Assembly (NCBI RefSeq): GCF_025362505.1
Contig: NZ_JANYGG010000108.1
Span: 1-64,000, forward strand
DNA length: 64,000 nt
Reading direction: 5' to 3'
Source of the DNA: Sphingomonas sp.
GTDB lineage: Bacteria > Pseudomonadota > Alphaproteobacteria > Sphingomonadales > Sphingomonadaceae
Below are positions 17,619 to 24,921 of the stretch, piece by piece; the first letter of the stretch is position 1; each line of letters starts with the position of its first letter. The notes beneath the pieces were generated by a model. That model was not told the origin of the DNA and searched no databases. It was given only the letters and a program-made list of their open reading frames with translations. Made by a program: the position numbers and the translations under genes.

Positions 17619-19052
17619 TCACCCCAGCGCCTTGACTATCTCTTCGACCATTTTCTTCGCGTCGGCGAGAAGCATCATCGTATTGTCGCGGTAGAACAGC
17701 TCGTTATCGACCCCGGCGTAACCCGCGCCGCCCATCGATCGCTTGATGAACAGGACGGTCCGGGCCTTTTCGACGTCGAGCACCGGCATGCCATAGATTG
17801 GCGATGTCTTGTCGGTCTTCGCCGCCGGGTTGGTGACATCGTTGGCGCCGATGACGAAGGCGACGTCGGTCTGCGCGAACTCGGAATTGATGTCCTCGAG
17901 CTCGAACACCTCGTCATAGGGGACGTTAGCCTCGGCGAGCAGCACGTTCATGTGTCCTGGCATGCGGCCCGCGACGGGGTGGATGGCGTATTTAACCCGC
18001 ACCCCCTTCTTCTTGAGCTGGTCGCCCATCTCGCGCAGCACATGCTGCGCCTGCGCCACCGCCATGCCGTACCCGGGGACGATGATCACCTGATCGGCCT
18101 GGCTCAACAGGAAGGCGGCGTCTTCGGCCGATCCGCGCTTGTAGGGGCGGTCGATCGCTTCCGCTCCGCCCGCGGGCCCCGCTATCGCGCCGAATCCGCC
18201 GGCGATGACCGAGATGAAGCTGCGGTTCATTGCCCGGCACATGATGTAGCTCAGGATCGCGCCCGATGATCCGACCAGCGCGCCGGTGATGATCATCGCG
18301 CTGTTGTGAAGCGTGAAGCCCATCGCCGCCGCCGCCCAGCCCGAGTAGCTGTTGAGCATCGACACCACGACCGGCATGTCGGCGCCGCCGATCGGAATGA
18401 TCAGCAGGAAGCCGATCGCGAACGACAGGCCGAGGATCGCCCAGAACAACGCCGGGGTCGACCAGTGGAACAGCGCGATCAGAACAAGGATCGCGACCAG
18501 CGCGGACAGGTTGATGACGTGACGACCGGGCAGCAGGATCGGCTTGCCCGACATGTTGCCGTTCAGCTTGAGGAAGGCGATGACCGAGCCCGAGAAGGTA
18601 ATCGCGCCGATCGCGACGCTAAGCCCCATCTCAATCCGGCTGGTCTGGAGGATGTCGGCTCCCGCCGCGTCGAGGATGTGGAAACTGGCCGGGTTGAGGT
18701 AAGCCGCCACCCCGACCAGCACCGCCGCCATGCCGACCAGACTGTGGAACGCGGCGACAAGCTGCGGCATGGCGGTCATCTGGATCCGCCGCGCGGTGAC
18801 GAGGCCGATCCCGCCGCCGATCGCGATCGCGATCAGGATTTCGCCAATGGACGCGATGCCGTGCGTGATCAGGGTCGTGACGACCGCGATCCCCATCCCG
18901 ATCATGCCGAGGCGGTTGCCGCGCTGCGACGTCACCGGGCTCGACAGCCCGCGCAGCGCGAGGATGAAGCACGCCCCCGCGATCAGGTAAGCGAGCGCGA
19001 TCCAGCTGTCGGAGATGCTGAAGAGCAGGTCGGTGCGGACCGCCGAAGCCAT
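17619..19052 (-). CDS. pntB: NAD(P) transhydrogenase subunit beta
   Basis: A 477-residue membrane protein. The first 290 residues hold about eight to nine transmembrane helices of the proton channel (domain II). The C-terminus is the NADP-binding domain III, with VPGYGMAVAQAQH, HPVAGRMPGHMNVLLAEA and VIGANDVTNPAA. It couples hydride transfer from NADH to NADP+ with proton influx. It starts 1 bp after the stop of pntAB, so those two are co-translated. The pntAA subunit lies 3 kb away beyond two opposite-strand genes. Confidence 0.96.
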   Translation of the reverse strand: MASAVRTDLLFSISDSWIALAYLIAGACFILALRGLSSPVTSQRGNRLGMIGMGIAVVTTLITHGIASIGEILIAIAIGGGIGLVTARRIQMTAMPQLVAAFHSLVGMAAVLVGVAAYLNPASFHILDAAGADILQTSRIEMGLSVAIGAITFSGSVIAFLKLNGNMSGKPILLPGRHVINLSALVAILVLIALFHWSTPALFWAILGLSFAIGFLLIIPIGGADMPVVVSMLNSYSGWAAAAMGFTLHNSAMIITGALVGSSGAILSYIMCRAMNRSFISVIAGGFGAIAGPAGGAEAIDRPYKRGSAEDAAFLLSQADQVIIVPGYGMAVAQAQHVLREMGDQLKKKGVRVKYAIHPVAGRMPGHMNVLLAEANVPYDEVFELEDINSEFAQTDVAFVIGANDVTNPAAKTDKTSPIYGMPVLDVEKARTVLFIKRSMGGAGYAGVDNELFYRDNTMMLLADAKKMVEEIVKALG

Positions 19053-19053
19053 C

Positions 19054-19335
19054 CTAGCGCTCCTTCTTCTTGTACATCGCCAGCATCCGGGCGGTCACCG
19101 CAAACCCGCCGAAGATATTGACCGATGCCAGCGCGACCGCGCCGAGCCCGAGCCACTTGGCAACCGGGCTCCCTTCCGCCGCGCTCGCGACCAGCGCGCC
19201 GACGATGATCACCGAAGAGATGGCGTTGGTCACCGCCATCAGCGGCGTGTGCAGCGCAGGGGTCACCGACCACACGACATAATAGCCGACGAAGCAGGCC
19301 AGCACGAAAATCGACAGTATCGAGATGAAGTCCAT
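19054..19335 (-). CDS. pntAB: NAD(P) transhydrogenase subunit alpha part 2 (membrane part)
   Basis: A 93-residue protein with three to four hydrophobic helices: FISILSIFVLACFVGYYVVW split as ILSIFVLACFVGYYVVW, then TPLMAVTNAISSVIIVGAL (the conserved TP-x-M-x-x-T-N-A-I segment), then a third near FGGFAVTARML. This is the alphaproteobacterial split form of the alpha-subunit membrane domain. GGAG sits about 7 bp before the ATG. Because pntAA is not directly upstream, a promoter must lie in the 164 bp between this start and the divergent CHASE2-EAL gene, or a very long antisense readthrough must occur. Confidence 0.95.
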   Translation of the reverse strand: MDFISILSIFVLACFVGYYVVWSVTPALHTPLMAVTNAISSVIIVGALVASAAEGSPVAKWLGLGAVALASVNIFGGFAVTARMLAMYKKKER

Positions 19336-19499
19336 GGTTTCTCCACGCGATGCGAGCCGCCTTGTGGCGCGCTGCCGCCTTGCTGTCGAGGCCGGATGCG
19401 CAGTGGAGTTTCGAGTGTTTGTTAACCGCGGAAATGGAGCAAGGTTTCCGAAATAATAACCTTTTCGTTGCTAGCAGCAGATCAGCGAGAAGGAAAACC

Positions 19500-21788
19500 G
19501 TGCGCGACGGCGATGCCATGACTGTCAAGGAACGCAAGAAACCGGCGGCGCCACGGCGCGTCCTGCTGTGGACGCTGCTCGCGGGGTTGGTGTTTGGGTT
19601 GATCGGCCTTGGGCTACCCCTCGACGTTGCGATGCGTGCCGGCCGAACGGTCGTCAACCAGCACCCCGCGAGTTCCAACATCGTCATTGTCAAGATCGAC
19701 GACGAAAGTCTGCGCCGGATCGGTAACTGGCCATGGCCGCGTTCTGCCCAGGCCAAGCTCGTCGATGAACTGTCACGGCTCGGCGCTCGGCAGATAATCT
19801 ACGACGTCATGTTCACGTTTCGCGGGGACCCGGCGGGCGATGCCGCTTTTGCCGATGCCTTGCGGCGATCGGGTCGCGTGACGCTTGGCGTAAAGGTCTC
19901 ACCAACGGGTAAAACGCAGCTTCCACTTCCCGACTTCGCCGCTCATGCGAAGATCGCGGACGTGTTCCTGTCGTATGATTTCGATACGCGCGTTCACGAG
20001 ATGAACTATTCATCGACCATCGGCGCCCAGGTCGTCCCTGCCCTCGCTACCAGCATAGCAGGCTGGAAGATATTTCCGTCCGGGCATTACCCGATCGACT
20101 ATTCGGTCGATCCACGAACCTTTGCGACAGTATCGGCAGCAGACCTCATCAATCACAAGATCAGCGCTGCTCAGATTTCGGGCAAGGTCGCGTTGATCGG
20201 GACGACAACGGACAGCATCGGTGACCAGTTCATCCTGCCCCGCCACGGTCGCATGGGCGGCGTGTATATCCATGCTATTGCTGCCGAGAACCTCATGAAG
20301 GGGATACCGACCGATTTCGGGTGGATTCCCGCTTACCTCCTTGCGGCGCTCGCCAGCGCATTTGCGATGACGCGGCGCCACGCGGTCGGGCAAAATCTGG
20401 TGTTGCTTGCTTGTGCGATCGTCTTGTTCGCCATCCCGATACAGCTTGAACGGGATTTGTTGTTCTTCGACATCTCGCCAGGTTGGTTCGTTCTCGCGGT
20501 GATCGCCTGGCATCTCAACTGGAAGCGGTTGCGCCAGCGCAGCACGGTCAACGAAGTGAGCGGCCTGCCGAACCTCGTCGCCTTGCGCGCCGATGCGTCG
20601 GCACGCGATCGTCCGCTGGTCGTGGCACGGCTGCGCAACTACGCCGAGATCGTGTCCGCCCTGCCGACCGACGCCGAGCGTCACTTCGTCGAGCAGGTCA
20701 CGTCGCGGCTTTGCGTCGGCGCGTCCACCCGGAAACTGTTCCATGGTGACGAAGGCGTGTTCGCCTGGTTCGCCGAGAATGACATTCCGCTCGGTCATCA
20801 CCTCGAGGCGCTTCACGCGCTGTTTCGCAGCCCGATCAAGGTCCGCGGCAGCCAGTATGACGTGATGATCAGCTTTGGCGTCGACATCGGCAGCGGCCGG
20901 GCCGCCTCGAATCGGCTCGGCAGCGCGCTGGTCGCCGCCGATGAGGCCGAGGCCGAGGGACTCAAGTGGAAATATCACGATCCCGCACGGCTCGCCGACG
21001 CCTCCTGGAAACTGTCTCTGCTCAGCCAGCTCGACGACGCGATCGAAAAGGGCGAGGTCTGGGTCGCCTATCAACCCAAGCTCGAACTCGCGAGCGGACT
21101 GATCGTCGGTGTCGAGGCGCTCGCGCGCTGGACGCACCCGGACAAGGGACCGATCAGTCCTGCCGAATTCATCGGTGCCGCCGAACAGCATGACCGCATC
21201 GAGCGACTGACCGATTTCATCATGGACGAGGCGGTCTCTGCCGTGGCGCACGCCGCTCGTCAGGGCCGGCCGCTTGGCCTCGCGGTCAATCTTTCGGCGC
21301 GATTGCTCAACGACCAGCAGTTGCCCCGCCGGGTCAGTGATTGCCTTGCCCGTCACGGCTTTCCCGCCAACCAATTGACCTTGGAACTGACCGAAACAGC
21401 GGCCCTCGCCGGAAGCGGTCAGGACATCGAAATGCTCGGCCGGCTGCGCGATCTCGGGGTCAAGATTTCGATCGACGATTATGGTACCGGCCTGTCGACG
21501 CTCGACTATCTGAAGAAAGTTCCGGCCGCTGAAATCAAGATCGACCAGAGCTTTATCAAGTCGATGCGCGACCACCGCAGCGACCGGGTGATGGTCCAGT
21601 CGACAATCGCGCTGGCCCATTCGCTGGGCCGAATCGTGGTTGCCGAAGGTGTCGAGGATCGCGACACCCTCGACCAGCTGACCAGCATGGGTTGCGACAT
21701 CGCGCAAGGGTTCATCATTGGACGCGCGACCAGTTTACGAAGCATTATCAAGAGGATGAATGTCGACAAAGGCCTTCGCGTGGCCTAA
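19500..21788 (+). CDS. Membrane CHASE2 sensor with degenerate GGDEF and EAL phosphodiesterase domain
   Basis: From GTG 19500 (AAGGA 6 bp upstream; ATG 19518 is an alternative) the product is 762 residues. A first transmembrane helix at about 21-40 is followed by an extracytoplasmic CHASE2 domain (VIVKIDDESL, then the ISGKVALIGTT block) and two to three helices at about 290-370. Next is a GGDEF-like domain whose signature is HGDEG (415-419), so cyclase activity is unlikely. The C-terminal EAL domain has EAL 539-541, NLSA, ELTE, DDYGTG from Asp659, KID and EGVE, so c-di-GMP hydrolysis should be possible. It sits on the opposite strand, inside the pnt locus. Confidence 0.9.
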   Translation: MRDGDAMTVKERKKPAAPRRVLLWTLLAGLVFGLIGLGLPLDVAMRAGRTVVNQHPASSNIVIVKIDDESLRRIGNWPWPRSAQAKLVDELSRLGARQIIYDVMFTFRGDPAGDAAFADALRRSGRVTLGVKVSPTGKTQLPLPDFAAHAKIADVFLSYDFDTRVHEMNYSSTIGAQVVPALATSIAGWKIFPSGHYPIDYSVDPRTFATVSAADLINHKISAAQISGKVALIGTTTDSIGDQFILPRHGRMGGVYIHAIAAENLMKGIPTDFGWIPAYLLAALASAFAMTRRHAVGQNLVLLACAIVLFAIPIQLERDLLFFDISPGWFVLAVIAWHLNWKRLRQRSTVNEVSGLPNLVALRADASARDRPLVVARLRNYAEIVSALPTDAERHFVEQVTSRLCVGASTRKLFHGDEGVFAWFAENDIPLGHHLEALHALFRSPIKVRGSQYDVMISFGVDIGSGRAASNRLGSALVAADEAEAEGLKWKYHDPARLADASWKLSLLSQLDDAIEKGEVWVAYQPKLELASGLIVGVEALARWTHPDKGPISPAEFIGAAEQHDRIERLTDFIMDEAVSAVAHAARQGRPLGLAVNLSARLLNDQQLPRRVSDCLARHGFPANQLTLELTETAALAGSGQDIEMLGRLRDLGVKISIDDYGTGLSTLDYLKKVPAAEIKIDQSFIKSMRDHRSDRVMVQSTIALAHSLGRIVVAEGVEDRDTLDQLTSMGCDIAQGFIIGRATSLRSIIKRMNVDKGLRVA

Positions 21789-21800
21789 AGTCTTAAAGTA

Positions 21801-21829
21801 TTGCTAACCATCTCTATTAAGGTTAATAT
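21801..21829 (+). promoter_or_regulatory. Predicted sigma70-type promoter for the 26-aa peptide gene
   Basis: TTGCTA (21801-21806) and TAATAT (21824-21829) are separated by exactly 17 bp in an unusually AT-rich stretch directly after the CHASE2-EAL stop. The predicted transcription start is about 21836, 40 bp before the peptide ATG. Few places in this window match the vegetative consensus this well. Confidence 0.6.
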
Positions 21830-21876
21830 CTCCTTCGGCAGTGATGTGAGTCGCTGCGTAAACAAGGGGATTTGCC

Positions 21877-21957
21877 ATGAAGAAGCCCGCAACAAAATTT
21901 TCCTTCTGGGGTTGGCTGATGGGTGTCGGCGGTGGCGCCGGCGGGTCGGGCGGCTAA
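21877..21957 (+). CDS. 26-residue glycine-tailed peptide, unknown function
   Basis: A tiny gene: AAGGGGA ends 6 bp before the ATG, the frame reads MKKPATKFSFWGWLMG followed by a ten-residue tail made of Gly with one Val, Ala and Ser, then TAA. The basic N-terminus plus an aromatic, hydrophobic middle suggests membrane or interface binding; the Gly tail is flexible. A matching promoter lies upstream and a T-rich intrinsic terminator 33 bp downstream, so it looks like a deliberate, separately expressed unit. It follows the CHASE2-EAL gene on the same strand by 88 bp. I do not recognise a family. Confidence 0.65.
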   Translation: MKKPATKFSFWGWLMGVGGGAGGSGG

Positions 21958-21989
21958 ACGCTTCCGACTTTCCTGGCTGACGTCAAGGA

Positions 21990-22021
21990 AAGCCGTCCTC
22001 GTGCCGAGGCGGCTTTTTTTG
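21990..22021 (+). terminator. Intrinsic terminator after the peptide gene
   Basis: AGCCGTCCTCG pairs with CGAGGCGGCT around a 3-nt loop (one bulge/mismatch), followed at once by seven T residues. This is the clearest Rho-independent terminator in the window. It would end both the peptide transcript and any readthrough from the CHASE2-EAL gene. A weaker dyad (AGTTAG/CTAACT, 22037-22054) lies between it and the pntAA stop. Confidence 0.8.
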
Positions 22022-22088: not shown

Positions 22089-23213
22089 TCAGGCGTTAAC
22101 GAGCAACCGTTCATTGACGACCTTGCCATCCTTCGTCAGTCGGATCGCCTTGACGATCTCGTCCTCGTCGGGAAGCACCGGCCGCCCGGCATCCTTGTCC
22201 CAGAAGGCGGCGAGGAAATTATAGAGGTTGCGCGCGAACAGCGCCGATGAATCCGCCGCCAACCCCTGCGCAAGGTTGCGCGCGCCGATGATCGTCACGC
22301 CGTGGCGCTCGACCGTCTCGCCAGGCACGCAACCCTCGACATTGCCCCCGGCATCCGCCGCGAGGTCGACGATCACGCTGCCCCGGCGCATCGTCGCGAC
22401 CTGTGCGTCGCTCACCAGCCGCGGCGCGGGTCGCCCCGGGATGAGCGCGGTGGTGATGACGATATCCTGCTTGGCGATGTGCGCCGAAACCAGCTCCGCC
22501 TGCGCCGCCTTATATTCGTCCGAGGTCTCGCCCGCGTAGCCGCCCGTTCCCTCGCCCTCGATCCCCGCGACATTGTCGACGAAAATCGGCTTCGCGCCGA
22601 GCGACTGGATCTGCTCCCTGGTTGCCGAACGCACATCGGTCGCGCTGACCTGTGCGCCAAGCCGCCGCCCGGTCGCGATCGCCTGCAATCCGGCCACCCC
22701 GACCCCCATCACGAACAGCCTTGTCGGGCTGATCGTCCCGGCTGCGGTCATCATCATCGGGAATGCGCGGCCATAACTCGCCGCCGCATCAACCACCGCC
22801 TTGTAGCCGGCCAGATTGGACTGTGACGACAAGATGTCCATCGACTGGGCACGGGTAATGCGCGGCATCCACTCCATCGCCAGCGCTTCGAGCCCGGCGG
22901 CGGCATAAACCTTGACCGCCTCACCGCGCCGCACCGGGTCGAGCGCGCCGATCAGCAACGCCCCCGGCTTGGTCTGCCCAAGACCATCAGGCCCCGAAAT
23001 GCATAGGATGATGTCGGCGTCGGCGACCAGTGCCGCGCGATCCTCGATCGCTGCACCCGCTTCGGCGAACGCCTCATCGCCCAGGCTCGCTCCCTCGCCC
23101 GCGCCCTTCTCGACCGCGACCGATGCGCCGAGCCCGATGAATTTCTTCACCGTCTCGGGAATCGCGGCGACGCGGCTTTCGCCAGCGGCTTCCCGAAGGA
23201 TCGCAATCTTCAA
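22089..23213 (-). CDS. pntAA: NAD(P) transhydrogenase subunit alpha part 1 (NAD-binding)
   Basis: A 374-residue soluble domain I of proton-translocating transhydrogenase, related to alanine dehydrogenase. It has MKIAILRE...E-x-R-V-A at the N-terminus, the RITRAQSMDILSSQSNLAGY region written in part (SMDILSSQSNLAGY), and the NAD Rossmann motif VMGVGVAGLQAIATGRRLGA. It begins 4 bp after the small oxidase-like gene, so those two form an operon. Downstream, where pntAB would be expected, lie the convergent peptide and CHASE2-EAL genes instead. Confidence 0.95.
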   Translation of the reverse strand: MKIAILREAAGESRVAAIPETVKKFIGLGASVAVEKGAGEGASLGDEAFAEAGAAIEDRAALVADADIILCISGPDGLGQTKPGALLIGALDPVRRGEAVKVYAAAGLEALAMEWMPRITRAQSMDILSSQSNLAGYKAVVDAAASYGRAFPMMMTAAGTISPTRLFVMGVGVAGLQAIATGRRLGAQVSATDVRSATREQIQSLGAKPIFVDNVAGIEGEGTGGYAGETSDEYKAAQAELVSAHIAKQDIVITTALIPGRPAPRLVSDAQVATMRRGSVIVDLAADAGGNVEGCVPGETVERHGVTIIGARNLAQGLAADSSALFARNLYNFLAAFWDKDAGRPVLPDEDEIVKAIRLTKDGKVVNERLLVNA

Positions 23214-23487: not shown

Positions 23488-24921
23488 ATGCGCGACGAAA
23501 CCTTCCGTTCCCTGCTACTGGTCGACGCCGACGCTGGCGAGCGTCGGCTTGTCGCGGCGATCGCCGCGCGCGCTGGCTGGAGCGTGGTCGGTGCGGCGGA
23601 CAGCGAGACCGCCGTCGGCCTCCTCCAGGGTCCGCACGGCCGCGAAGTCCAGGCCGCGCTGCTGTCCACCTGGGACGGCGAGAACGGCCCTGCCCTGATC
23701 GCCGCGCTGCGCCGCTGCCGCGAAGCATTGCCGGTGCTGGTGCTGGCCGAAAATTCCAGCCGCGCGCTGGCGATCGAAGCAATGCGCGCCGGCGCGTCCG
23801 ACTACCTCGTCAAGCCGGTTGCGCCCGAGCGCCTGCTCGAAGCGCTCACCGTCAACGCCGACCGTCGCCGCGCCGCGGGTGAAATGGCGCCACTGTCCGA
23901 AAAGCTCGGCGACGCGCTCGCGCTCGAAGAACTGGTCGGCGCCGCCCCCGATTTCCGCGCCGCGCTCGCCGTCGCCGCCAAGGCTGCGCGCAACCGCCTG
24001 CCGATCCTCGTCATCGGCGAGGCCGGCGCGGGCAAGGAAACTTTCGCCCGCGCGATCCACGCAGCCTCGCTGCGCGCGCGCTCACCCCTCATCATCCTCG
24101 ACTGCAAGGCGGTCCCCGCGAACATCGTCGACAGCGAATTATTCGGCCACGTTCCCGGCGCCTTCCCCGGCGCCTTCGCCGAGAAGGTCGGGCGGATGGT
24201 CGAGGCCGACGGCGGCACGCTGCTGCTTGACGAGATCGGCGAACTTCCCGAAGCGACGCAAGCCGCGCTCGACCGCGTGCTGGCGACCGGCGAGGTCCGC
24301 CCGGTCGGCTGCAACGGCTCGACCTCGGTCGATGTGCGGGTCATCGCCACCTCGACCCGCCCGGTGCTCGACCGCCTCCATCCCGGTCTCGCCGCGCGGA
24401 TCGGCGCGACCACTGTCACCATCCCGCCCTTGCGAGAGCGCAGCGGCGACATCCCCGCGCTCGCCCGTCATCTGCTCGTCCGCCACGCCCGCCAGCCCGG
24501 AATGCGCACCCTGTCGATCGGCAACGACGCGCTGGCGGTGCTGATGCGCTACGGCTGGCCGGGCAATGTCCGCCAGCTCGCCGGAGTCCTGTTTCGCGCC
24601 GCGCTGACCGAGGAATCGGCGCTCACCGCCGAGCATTTCCCGCATATCGCGGTCCAGTCGCGCTTCACCGGACGCCGCAGCGACTTCGCGCCCCAGCTGA
24701 GCGAATCAACCCAGGACGCCGCGCTCGCCGCCGCCGCGCCCGTCACCCTTTTCCGCCCCGACGGCCATATCCGCAGCATGGAAGAGATTGAGGCCGACCT
24801 GATCCGCCTCGCCATCGGCCATTATCGCGGGCGCATGACCGAAGTCGCGCGTCGGCTGGGGATCGGGCGGTCGACGCTCTATCGCAAGCTCGGCGAGCTC
24901 GGGATCGATACGGCGGCCTGA
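23488..24921 (+). CDS. NtrC-like AAA+ response regulator with degenerate receiver and GAFTGA motif
   Basis: A 477-residue protein with receiver (1-125), AAA+ (145-380) and Fis-type HTH (TEVARRLGIGRSTLYRKL, near 455). In the receiver the phosphoacceptor position is Ser60 (AALLSTWDG), although the early Asp pair and Lys109 remain. The AAA+ core keeps Walker A GEAGAGKE (177-184) and Walker B GGTLLLDE (242-249). The loop that contacts sigma54 reads GAFPGA (224-229), with Pro replacing the key Thr of GAFTGA. It is therefore probably not a phosphorylation-gated sigma54 activator. It is divergent from the cox-like/pntAA unit. Confidence 0.88.
   Translation: MRDETFRSLLLVDADAGERRLVAAIAARAGWSVVGAADSETAVGLLQGPHGREVQAALLSTWDGENGPALIAALRRCREALPVLVLAENSSRALAIEAMRAGASDYLVKPVAPERLLEALTVNADRRRAAGEMAPLSEKLGDALALEELVGAAPDFRAALAVAAKAARNRLPILVIGEAGAGKETFARAIHAASLRARSPLIILDCKAVPANIVDSELFGHVPGAFPGAFAEKVGRMVEADGGTLLLDEIGELPEATQAALDRVLATGEVRPVGCNGSTSVDVRVIATSTRPVLDRLHPGLAARIGATTVTIPPLRERSGDIPALARHLLVRHARQPGMRTLSIGNDALAVLMRYGWPGNVRQLAGVLFRAALTEESALTAEHFPHIAVQSRFTGRRSDFAPQLSESTQDAALAAAAPVTLFRPDGHIRSMEEIEADLIRLAIGHYRGRMTEVARRLGIGRSTLYRKLGELGIDTAA

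Follow-up and report, generated by a model that had tools for sequence, protein, structure and literature searches.

Results

The peptide gene and its neighbourhood

The window, by which we mean the whole stretch of 64,000 nucleotides of Sphingomonas sp. that was analysed, carries on its forward strand a small gene of 26 codons, MKKPATKFSFWGWLMGVGGGAGGSGG (21877..21957, +), which starts with the ATG at 21877, stops with the TAA ending at 21957 and is preceded, seven bases 5' of the ATG, by the Shine-Dalgarno sequence AAGGGG (21864..21869, +). The start, the stop, the translation and the strong ribosome binding site had been read in the same way in the initial annotation. A gap of 88 nt separates the ATG from the stop codon of the preceding gene (19350..21788, +; the ORF as listed, its true start being maybe further in), which encodes a CHASE2-EAL membrane protein, a predicted c-di-GMP phosphodiesterase. 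The frame, the start, the stop and the ribosome binding site are all kept in those ORFs of relatives that were found via protein similarity, and AGGGG/GGAG-type sites precede even those found through protein similarity alone. The 26-aa ORF is a genuine gene, which standard annotation probably skips.

The pair of genes lies inside the transhydrogenase operon and runs in the opposite direction, because pntAA (22089-23213, -) is found on one side, beyond the peptide gene and convergent with it, and pntAB (19054-19335, -) and pntB (17619-19052, -) flank the pair on the other. Further out, beyond pntAA, the window encodes a sigma-54 activator with a receiver domain and a Fis-type HTH (23488-24921, +). 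Within the window's genus this placement recurs: sixteen fetched named loci had pnt genes, and 8 of them showed these genes on both sides of the pair, whereas 8 had a single side in view. The pair is beside other genes in L188, near flavin reductase/enoyl-CoA hydratase genes in Sphingorhabdus and in Blastomonas-type loci, and also outside the pnt setting in Parasphingopyxis. Altogether, the two genes have remained side by side in at least four distinct settings.

The order and number of the genes are not fixed. L098 and L115 encode the peptide and the enzyme on opposite strands, and tandem duplicates of the peptide gene occur in L026 (at 1500 and 1773) and L176 (at 2737 and 3024), with intact frames and with a promoter-like element and a Shine-Dalgarno sequence for each copy. 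In Blastomonas aquatica (L175, 5795, -), the peptide gene adjoins flavin-reductase/enoyl-CoA-hydratase and DUF3667 genes, which also border the pair in Sphingorhabdus, as the hydratase gene does in a Blastomonas-type locus; the clade-A enzyme (see below) of this species is on another contig, without the peptide there. In Blastomonas CZS25K, there was no CHASE2-EAL gene beside the peptide within the fetched 8 kb. The strand flips, the duplicates and the separation in B. aquatica together indicate that the peptide gene is independent, being neither a 3' extension nor a leader of the gene for the enzyme.

The partner ORF of 812 aa matched CHASE2 at E 2.7e-34 and EAL at E 3.3e-65. The AlphaFold2 model (mean pLDDT 80.3, pTM 0.49) had the architecture of a CHASE2 domain, a transmembrane part, a GGDEF-like domain unmatched by Pfam and an EAL domain. 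When the peptide was joined to the enzyme via the natural intergenic linker, AlphaFold2 left it disordered with a pLDDT of about 30 and lent no support to docking, in what was a weak test with 15 sequences.

Distribution of the peptide

Peptide candidates occurred in 27 of at least 96 genera sampled in Sphingomonadaceae (family by record names), a tally over our search tables in which g52 and g105 rest on by-eye candidates only. Most homologues follow closely after a CHASE2-EAL gene of one particular clade. A search of 100 relatives with the single sequence gave 34 genomes at E <= 10, and among the 30 loci fetched from it, those of the window's genus adjoin CHASE2-EAL except for L014; six of the 30 were judged to be chance. 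The profile search reached other genera of the family: 105 of 298 genomes matched at E <= 1, with chance accounting for many of the weaker matches, and CHASE2-EAL lay no more than about 1.5 kb away in 28 of the 29 new loci taken from the best matches. At the level of the order, 36 of 246 genomes matched at E <= 0.05; all of those listed were Sphingomonadaceae and some of the weakest were chance.

Outside this family, no credible member was found in the class-wide search of 289 genomes. Eleven genomes matched there at E <= 0.05. Two of these, G113 and the genome of the window, belong to the family; the loci of the other nine were without CHASE2-EAL and were judged to be chance. When the single peptide was searched against 39 genomes from the order's other families, eight matched at E <= 10, and the five fetched from these eight (L006, L021, L024, L028 and L030) were also judged to be chance. 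These five, L014, L081-L094 and L177 were excluded from later counts.

A scan with the core motif in the named genome collection found a sphingomonad-type peptide at 30 of 49 loci. CHASE2-EAL was present at 28 of these 30 and absent from all of the 19 loci without such a peptide. Among the records with the peptide are Sphingomonas sediminicola, S. rhizophila, S. edaphi, S. alba, Blastomonas, Chakrabartia godavariana, Sphingorhabdus and Parasphingopyxis marina. L183, which is among the 30, had no in-frame ATG. The contig of L195 is titled Rhodospirillales and is probably mis-binned, because its peptide is the same as one from the window's genus and lies in the pnt setting. A first scan of genome contigs with the whole enzyme as query gave no confirmed match.

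The databases had little to compare with. Six tested peptides had zero matches in Pfam and NCBIfam, four peptides tested against PHROGs gave one weak match (E 0.063), and the solved structures contained no credible relative, with one chance match at E 0.44. In the openly licensed literature, we found no paper on the peptide, on its five core motifs or on CHASE2-EAL with a small protein or with Sphingomonas, and searches on c-di-GMP phosphodiesterase topics likewise gave none on the peptide. The main text of a c-di-GMP survey of alphaproteobacteria (PMC9756655) does not contain CHASE2.

Features of the peptide family

We collected 91 ORFs (89 different peptides) by a pattern rule plus five by-eye additions. 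The peptides are 11-41 aa long with a median of 26, and vary widely in length and outside a shared core like F-W-x-W-L-x-G-G-G-W, which is preceded by a usually basic start. The W-x-[WYF] motif is present in 86 of the 91; the shares of ORFs with the Shine-Dalgarno sequence, the aromatic core and Gly are partly built in, because the rule demanded them. The basic start was not imposed by the rule, and 76 of the 91 have Lys or Arg within residues 2-5, with a mean net charge of +2.7 across the whole set. In addition to Trp, the Gly, Leu and start residues are conserved.

The initial annotation had stressed a Gly-rich tail. Such a tail is found in the window's genus and some others, but Gly is the C-terminal residue in only 55 of the 91, and several genera have little or no tail (MWDWLFGGGYWA, MRRTIWDWLFGGRHG and MAKRTKQPVRGFWDWLLGGGWSN are examples), so that it is not diagnostic. 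For the same reason, we take the Trp core rather than the Gly tail to be the hallmark and the defining part of the family. The shortest members have 11-12 codons (MWDWLFGGGYWA, MWAWIFGGGYWR and MWAWLMGGGTWR, and by eye MKKWPWAGWNW, MYSWNWGSYGR and MWAWFRDVWGGR), and members of 11-16 residues make up 10 of the 91.

Membrane activity had also been proposed, and is plausible from the basic N-terminus, the Trp-rich core and the favourable interface energy. On the interface-energy scale, the best 10-residue stretch had a median of -5.9 kcal/mol, compared to -3.4 kcal/mol in shuffled peptides. The mean charge is +3.1 ahead of the first Trp and -0.4 from the first Trp onward. No membrane-spanning hydrophobic stretch, as in single-pass proteins like MgtS or AcrZ, was found, the longest run without charged or polar residues having a median of 8. 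It appears from this composition that the peptide favours the membrane interface.

Comparison of the two enzyme clades

With the enzyme as query, 222 of 397 genomes in a family-wide search had a match at E <= 1e-50. We fetched 80 CHASE2-EAL genes with their downstream DNA, picked by hand so as to span genera; for nine of the first twenty, the profile search had given a weak peptide match nearby, and loci with an already known peptide were mostly omitted. A tree built from the enzymes only, without any input from the peptide, and rooted at the midpoint (its two sides having support of 0.975 and 1.0), separated clade A, with 44 of these genes and the window's protein, from clade B, with 36. One rule, which was formulated after examples had been seen and was applied equally to both clades, called for a Shine-Dalgarno sequence, an ATG ORF of 10-45 codons and a hydrophobic-Trp core, with both strands searched over 420 nt.

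A peptide ORF satisfying the rule was found at 36 of the 44 clade-A genes (L128 being a weak match) and at 0 of the 36 clade-B genes, and base-shuffled DNA gave means of 0.5 of 44 and 0.25 of 36, respectively, over 20 rounds. Among the clade-A genes that were missed, by-eye candidates exist at L101, L131, L134, L146 and L169, a candidate lies about 1.07 kb downstream in L132, and the genome of L106 has the peptide elsewhere; at L099, the clade-A enzyme is present and no peptide was found. The tie of the small gene to CHASE2-EAL, which the initial annotation had pointed to, is borne out. A genetic partnership of the peptide and CHASE2-EAL is strongly supported.

Ten EAL catalytic residues (E, L, N, E, E, D, D, K, E and Q) were invariant in 44 of 44 clade-A sequences and were kept in 36 of 36 clade-B sequences, so the clade-A enzymes are predicted phosphodiesterases with intact catalytic residues. 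Residues separating clade A from clade B are few, six at the chosen cut-off. The clearest one is R522 (numbered in the window ORF), which lies between CHASE2 and EAL and is present in 45 of 45 clade-A sequences including the window's, versus 6% of those in clade B. It is a candidate clade-specific site.

Conservation of the frame, as against that of the DNA, was one of the points on which the initial annotation had let the gene stand or fall, and it held. For 19 hand-picked pairs, pooled pN was 0.12 and pS 0.36 (pN/pS 0.34), and the differences at codon positions 1, 2 and 3 numbered 67, 48 and 130; L051/L052 was left out of the pool for a mismatch at the peptide end, and pN exceeded pS in two pairs, L055/L059 and L119/L115. 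As judged from these substitutions, the peptide frame is under purifying selection. In several pairs, the upstream DNA was about as conserved as the ORF, which is expected if it contains a promoter.

Signals for transcription

Between the two genes, a box TTAA-N7-CTAACC (21793..21809, +) differs by one mismatch from TTAA-N7-TTAA, which we take to be the CtrA consensus, and overlaps a promoter/operator-like element of 26 bp, TTGCTAACCATCTCTATTAAGGTTAA (21801..21826, +), with the inverted repeats TAACC/GGTTA; the arrangement in the window is TTAA-N7-CTAACC followed by an inverted GGTTAA. By eye, the element contains the hexamers TTGCTA and TTAATA, 16 nt apart, and the promoter scan left it unreported, under its threshold. 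GAGTC, a GANTC (CcrM-type) site, lies between the promoter and the start (21848..21852, +), and an intrinsic terminator with a GC hairpin and a T run is found 3' of the peptide gene (21989..22020, +). GANTC and CtrA are dealt with in PMC8116508.

The same signals recur in the family. TTAA-N7-TTAA with at most one mismatch was found upstream of 55 of the 91 ORFs, compared to 2 of 36 clade-B regions and a shuffle mean of 6.8, and TTAACC/GGTTAA upstream of 71 of the 91, compared to 2 of 36 clade-B regions. GANTC occurred upstream in 48 of the 91 (shuffle mean 27.4, maximum 39; clade B, 8 of 36). These 91 regions are non-independent, 41 being from the window's genus and 50 from others: the box was found in 17 and TTAACC/GGTTAA in 39 of the former, and in 38 and 32 of the latter, respectively. 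The 26-bp core pattern (at most three mismatches) occurred once per genome in four genomes of the window's genus, each time at the peptide gene. Exact TTAA-N7-TTAAC had 5 sites in the window's genome (control 1), none of them at the peptide gene. Upstream of the enzyme gene, CtrA-like boxes were found in 6 of 23 clade-A and 7 of 25 clade-B cases, so they are no commoner in clade A. The upstream element of the peptide gene resembles a CtrA site, and CtrA is its candidate regulator.

Terminator-like signals were found 3' of 77 of the 91 ORFs, compared to 8 of 91 when shuffled. The RNA of the window folds better than its shuffles (z -2.88), and Rfam gave sub-threshold matches only, the best-placed being RcsR1 with 17.7 bits versus a threshold of 60. 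With these signals on both sides, the peptide gene looks like its own transcription unit.

In PMC6472365, CtrA is cited as activating flagella in alphaproteobacteria including S. melonis. A flagellar role for the peptide found no support: flagellin was lacking in 20 of 60 peptide/clade-A genomes, the window's included, and in 7 of the 20 genomes that had no CHASE2-EAL match.

Discussion

A micropeptide linked to one c-di-GMP enzyme

Because the peptide gene is real, is conserved and travels with one c-di-GMP enzyme, it probably encodes a new regulatory micropeptide. We consider it to represent a new micropeptide family of Sphingomonadaceae, judging from a frame conserved across genera and a Trp core beside the clade-A gene. 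Most likely, the peptide belongs to the same pathway as the phosphodiesterase and acts in trans at the inner membrane surface. We suggest that a CtrA-like promoter of its own would drive transcription of the gene as a single-gene unit, and that the basic N-terminus and the Trp-rich core (W-x-W-L-x-G-G-G-W) would place the product at the cytoplasmic surface of the inner membrane. In that position, the peptide may act in trans on the adjacent CHASE2-EAL phosphodiesterase of the membrane or jointly with it, and might tune the activity, clustering or location of the enzyme. With a CtrA-type promoter, such control would depend on the cell cycle or on life-style. For this model as a whole, we see about an even chance. 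The peptide perhaps contacts the enzyme directly, and both the contact and its effect are inferred by us. The wide variation in length and outside the core counts against the model, being odd in a tight binding partner. So do the peptides without an adjacent CHASE2-EAL gene in B. aquatica and CZS25K, the enzyme without a peptide at L099, the small number of residues that separate the two clades, the two pairs with pN above pS, the disordered peptide in the AlphaFold2 model, the equal frequency of CtrA-like boxes upstream of the enzyme gene in both clades and the departure of the window's own box from the canonical form.

The strongest form of the proposal is that of a lineage-wide partner peptide: the product of a gene of as few as 11-12 codons (as in MWDWLFGGGYWA), made from a cell-cycle-type promoter, would directly set the activity or the position of one membrane CHASE2-EAL enzyme, which we put forward tentatively and a little short of an even chance. 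If true, the gene would rank with the shortest conserved genes for proteins known in bacteria, and second-messenger signalling would have a peptide as an input. Annotation passes over genes of 11-30 codons, and comparative evidence of the kinds assembled here is available for few of them, with 27 genera, a paralogue control, codon constraint and promoter-like and terminator signals of their own. If the peptide acts on the phosphodiesterase, it would be an input into c-di-GMP control, and possibly a point where the alphaproteobacterial cell-cycle regulation by CtrA and c-di-GMP meet.

Other explanations

The peptide may be membrane-active with another target, such as the membrane itself, the divisome, a pilus or the envelope machinery, and share with the enzyme a regulon or a life-style module without acting on it. 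Its own promoter-like and terminator signals, its retention in B. aquatica without the enzyme alongside, the undocked AlphaFold2 model and the variability outside the core would all suit this explanation. However, the position of the peptide at one CHASE2-EAL clade and at 0 of 36 paralogues, and the persistence of the pair across different neighbourhoods, speak against it. We regard this explanation as possible and rather unlikely.

CHASE2 is an extracytoplasmic sensor domain. This raises the idea, in line with the initial annotation, that the peptide is exported as a signalling or membrane-active peptide, comparable to short hydrophobic pheromones and phenol-soluble modulins, and is sensed outside by the CHASE2 domain of the partner. 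Tiny Trp-rich peptides do recall known pheromones, and tandem copies occur. However, a signal sequence is not visible in the peptide, the members of 11-16 residues leave scant space for a leader, and no exporter was a common neighbour in the flank scans at a few loci, L226 alone having an upstream MatE-type transporter. An exported signal is therefore unlikely.

The Trp-rich ORF lies directly 5' of an intrinsic terminator and its RNA folds better than shuffles, which could point to a regulatory RNA or nascent-peptide device, i.e. a leader of the TrpL or TnaC type or a dual-function sRNA, in which the translation of the Trp codons, and not the finished peptide, would matter. However, pntA, which comes next in the window and at the pnt-linked loci, is convergent and leaves no target in cis downstream; no same-direction structural gene was found downstream in these loci, other genera having been partly examined. 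The reversed orientation in L098 and L115, the conservation of Gly, Leu and the start residues besides Trp, the pN/pS ratio and the absence of an Rfam match near threshold argue in the same direction, and we hold such a device to be quite improbable.

Finally, a chance ORF within a conserved promoter-terminator region, as might be supposed from those pairs with upstream DNA about as conserved as the ORF, is ruled out for practical purposes by the comparison of the two clades with each other and with shuffled DNA, by the codon-level constraint and by the core common to several genera.

Comparison with known small proteins

MgtS, AcrZ and KdpF are small regulatory membrane proteins which act on a larger membrane partner. 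The peptide that we propose to act on or with the CHASE2-EAL enzyme is similar in being a tiny conserved ORF with a membrane-tending composition, a larger membrane protein nearby and a presumed action in trans. However, it is too short, down to 11 residues, and too rich in Gly and Trp for a transmembrane helix, and its partner is a predicted c-di-GMP phosphodiesterase. SpoVM is an amphipathic micropeptide of the membrane surface, and resembles our peptide in having about 26 residues that are basic and aromatic and in being expected at the membrane surface. The two differ, by description, in lineage and in the core Trp-x-Trp-Leu-x-Gly-Gly-Gly-Trp.

The peTrpL of rhizobia, a Trp-rich leader peptide that also acts in trans, is likewise very short and Trp-rich with a terminator after it. 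In contrast, our peptide has nothing downstream to attenuate in the window, and it has a CtrA-like element of its own, the linkage to CHASE2-EAL and conserved Gly and Leu. The short hydrophobic peptide pheromones SHP and ComS/XIP share with it the situation of a tiny, unleadered and Trp-rich peptide next to a signalling gene, but here the host is Gram-negative, the scanned flanks contain no Rgg-type regulator and export is conjectural.
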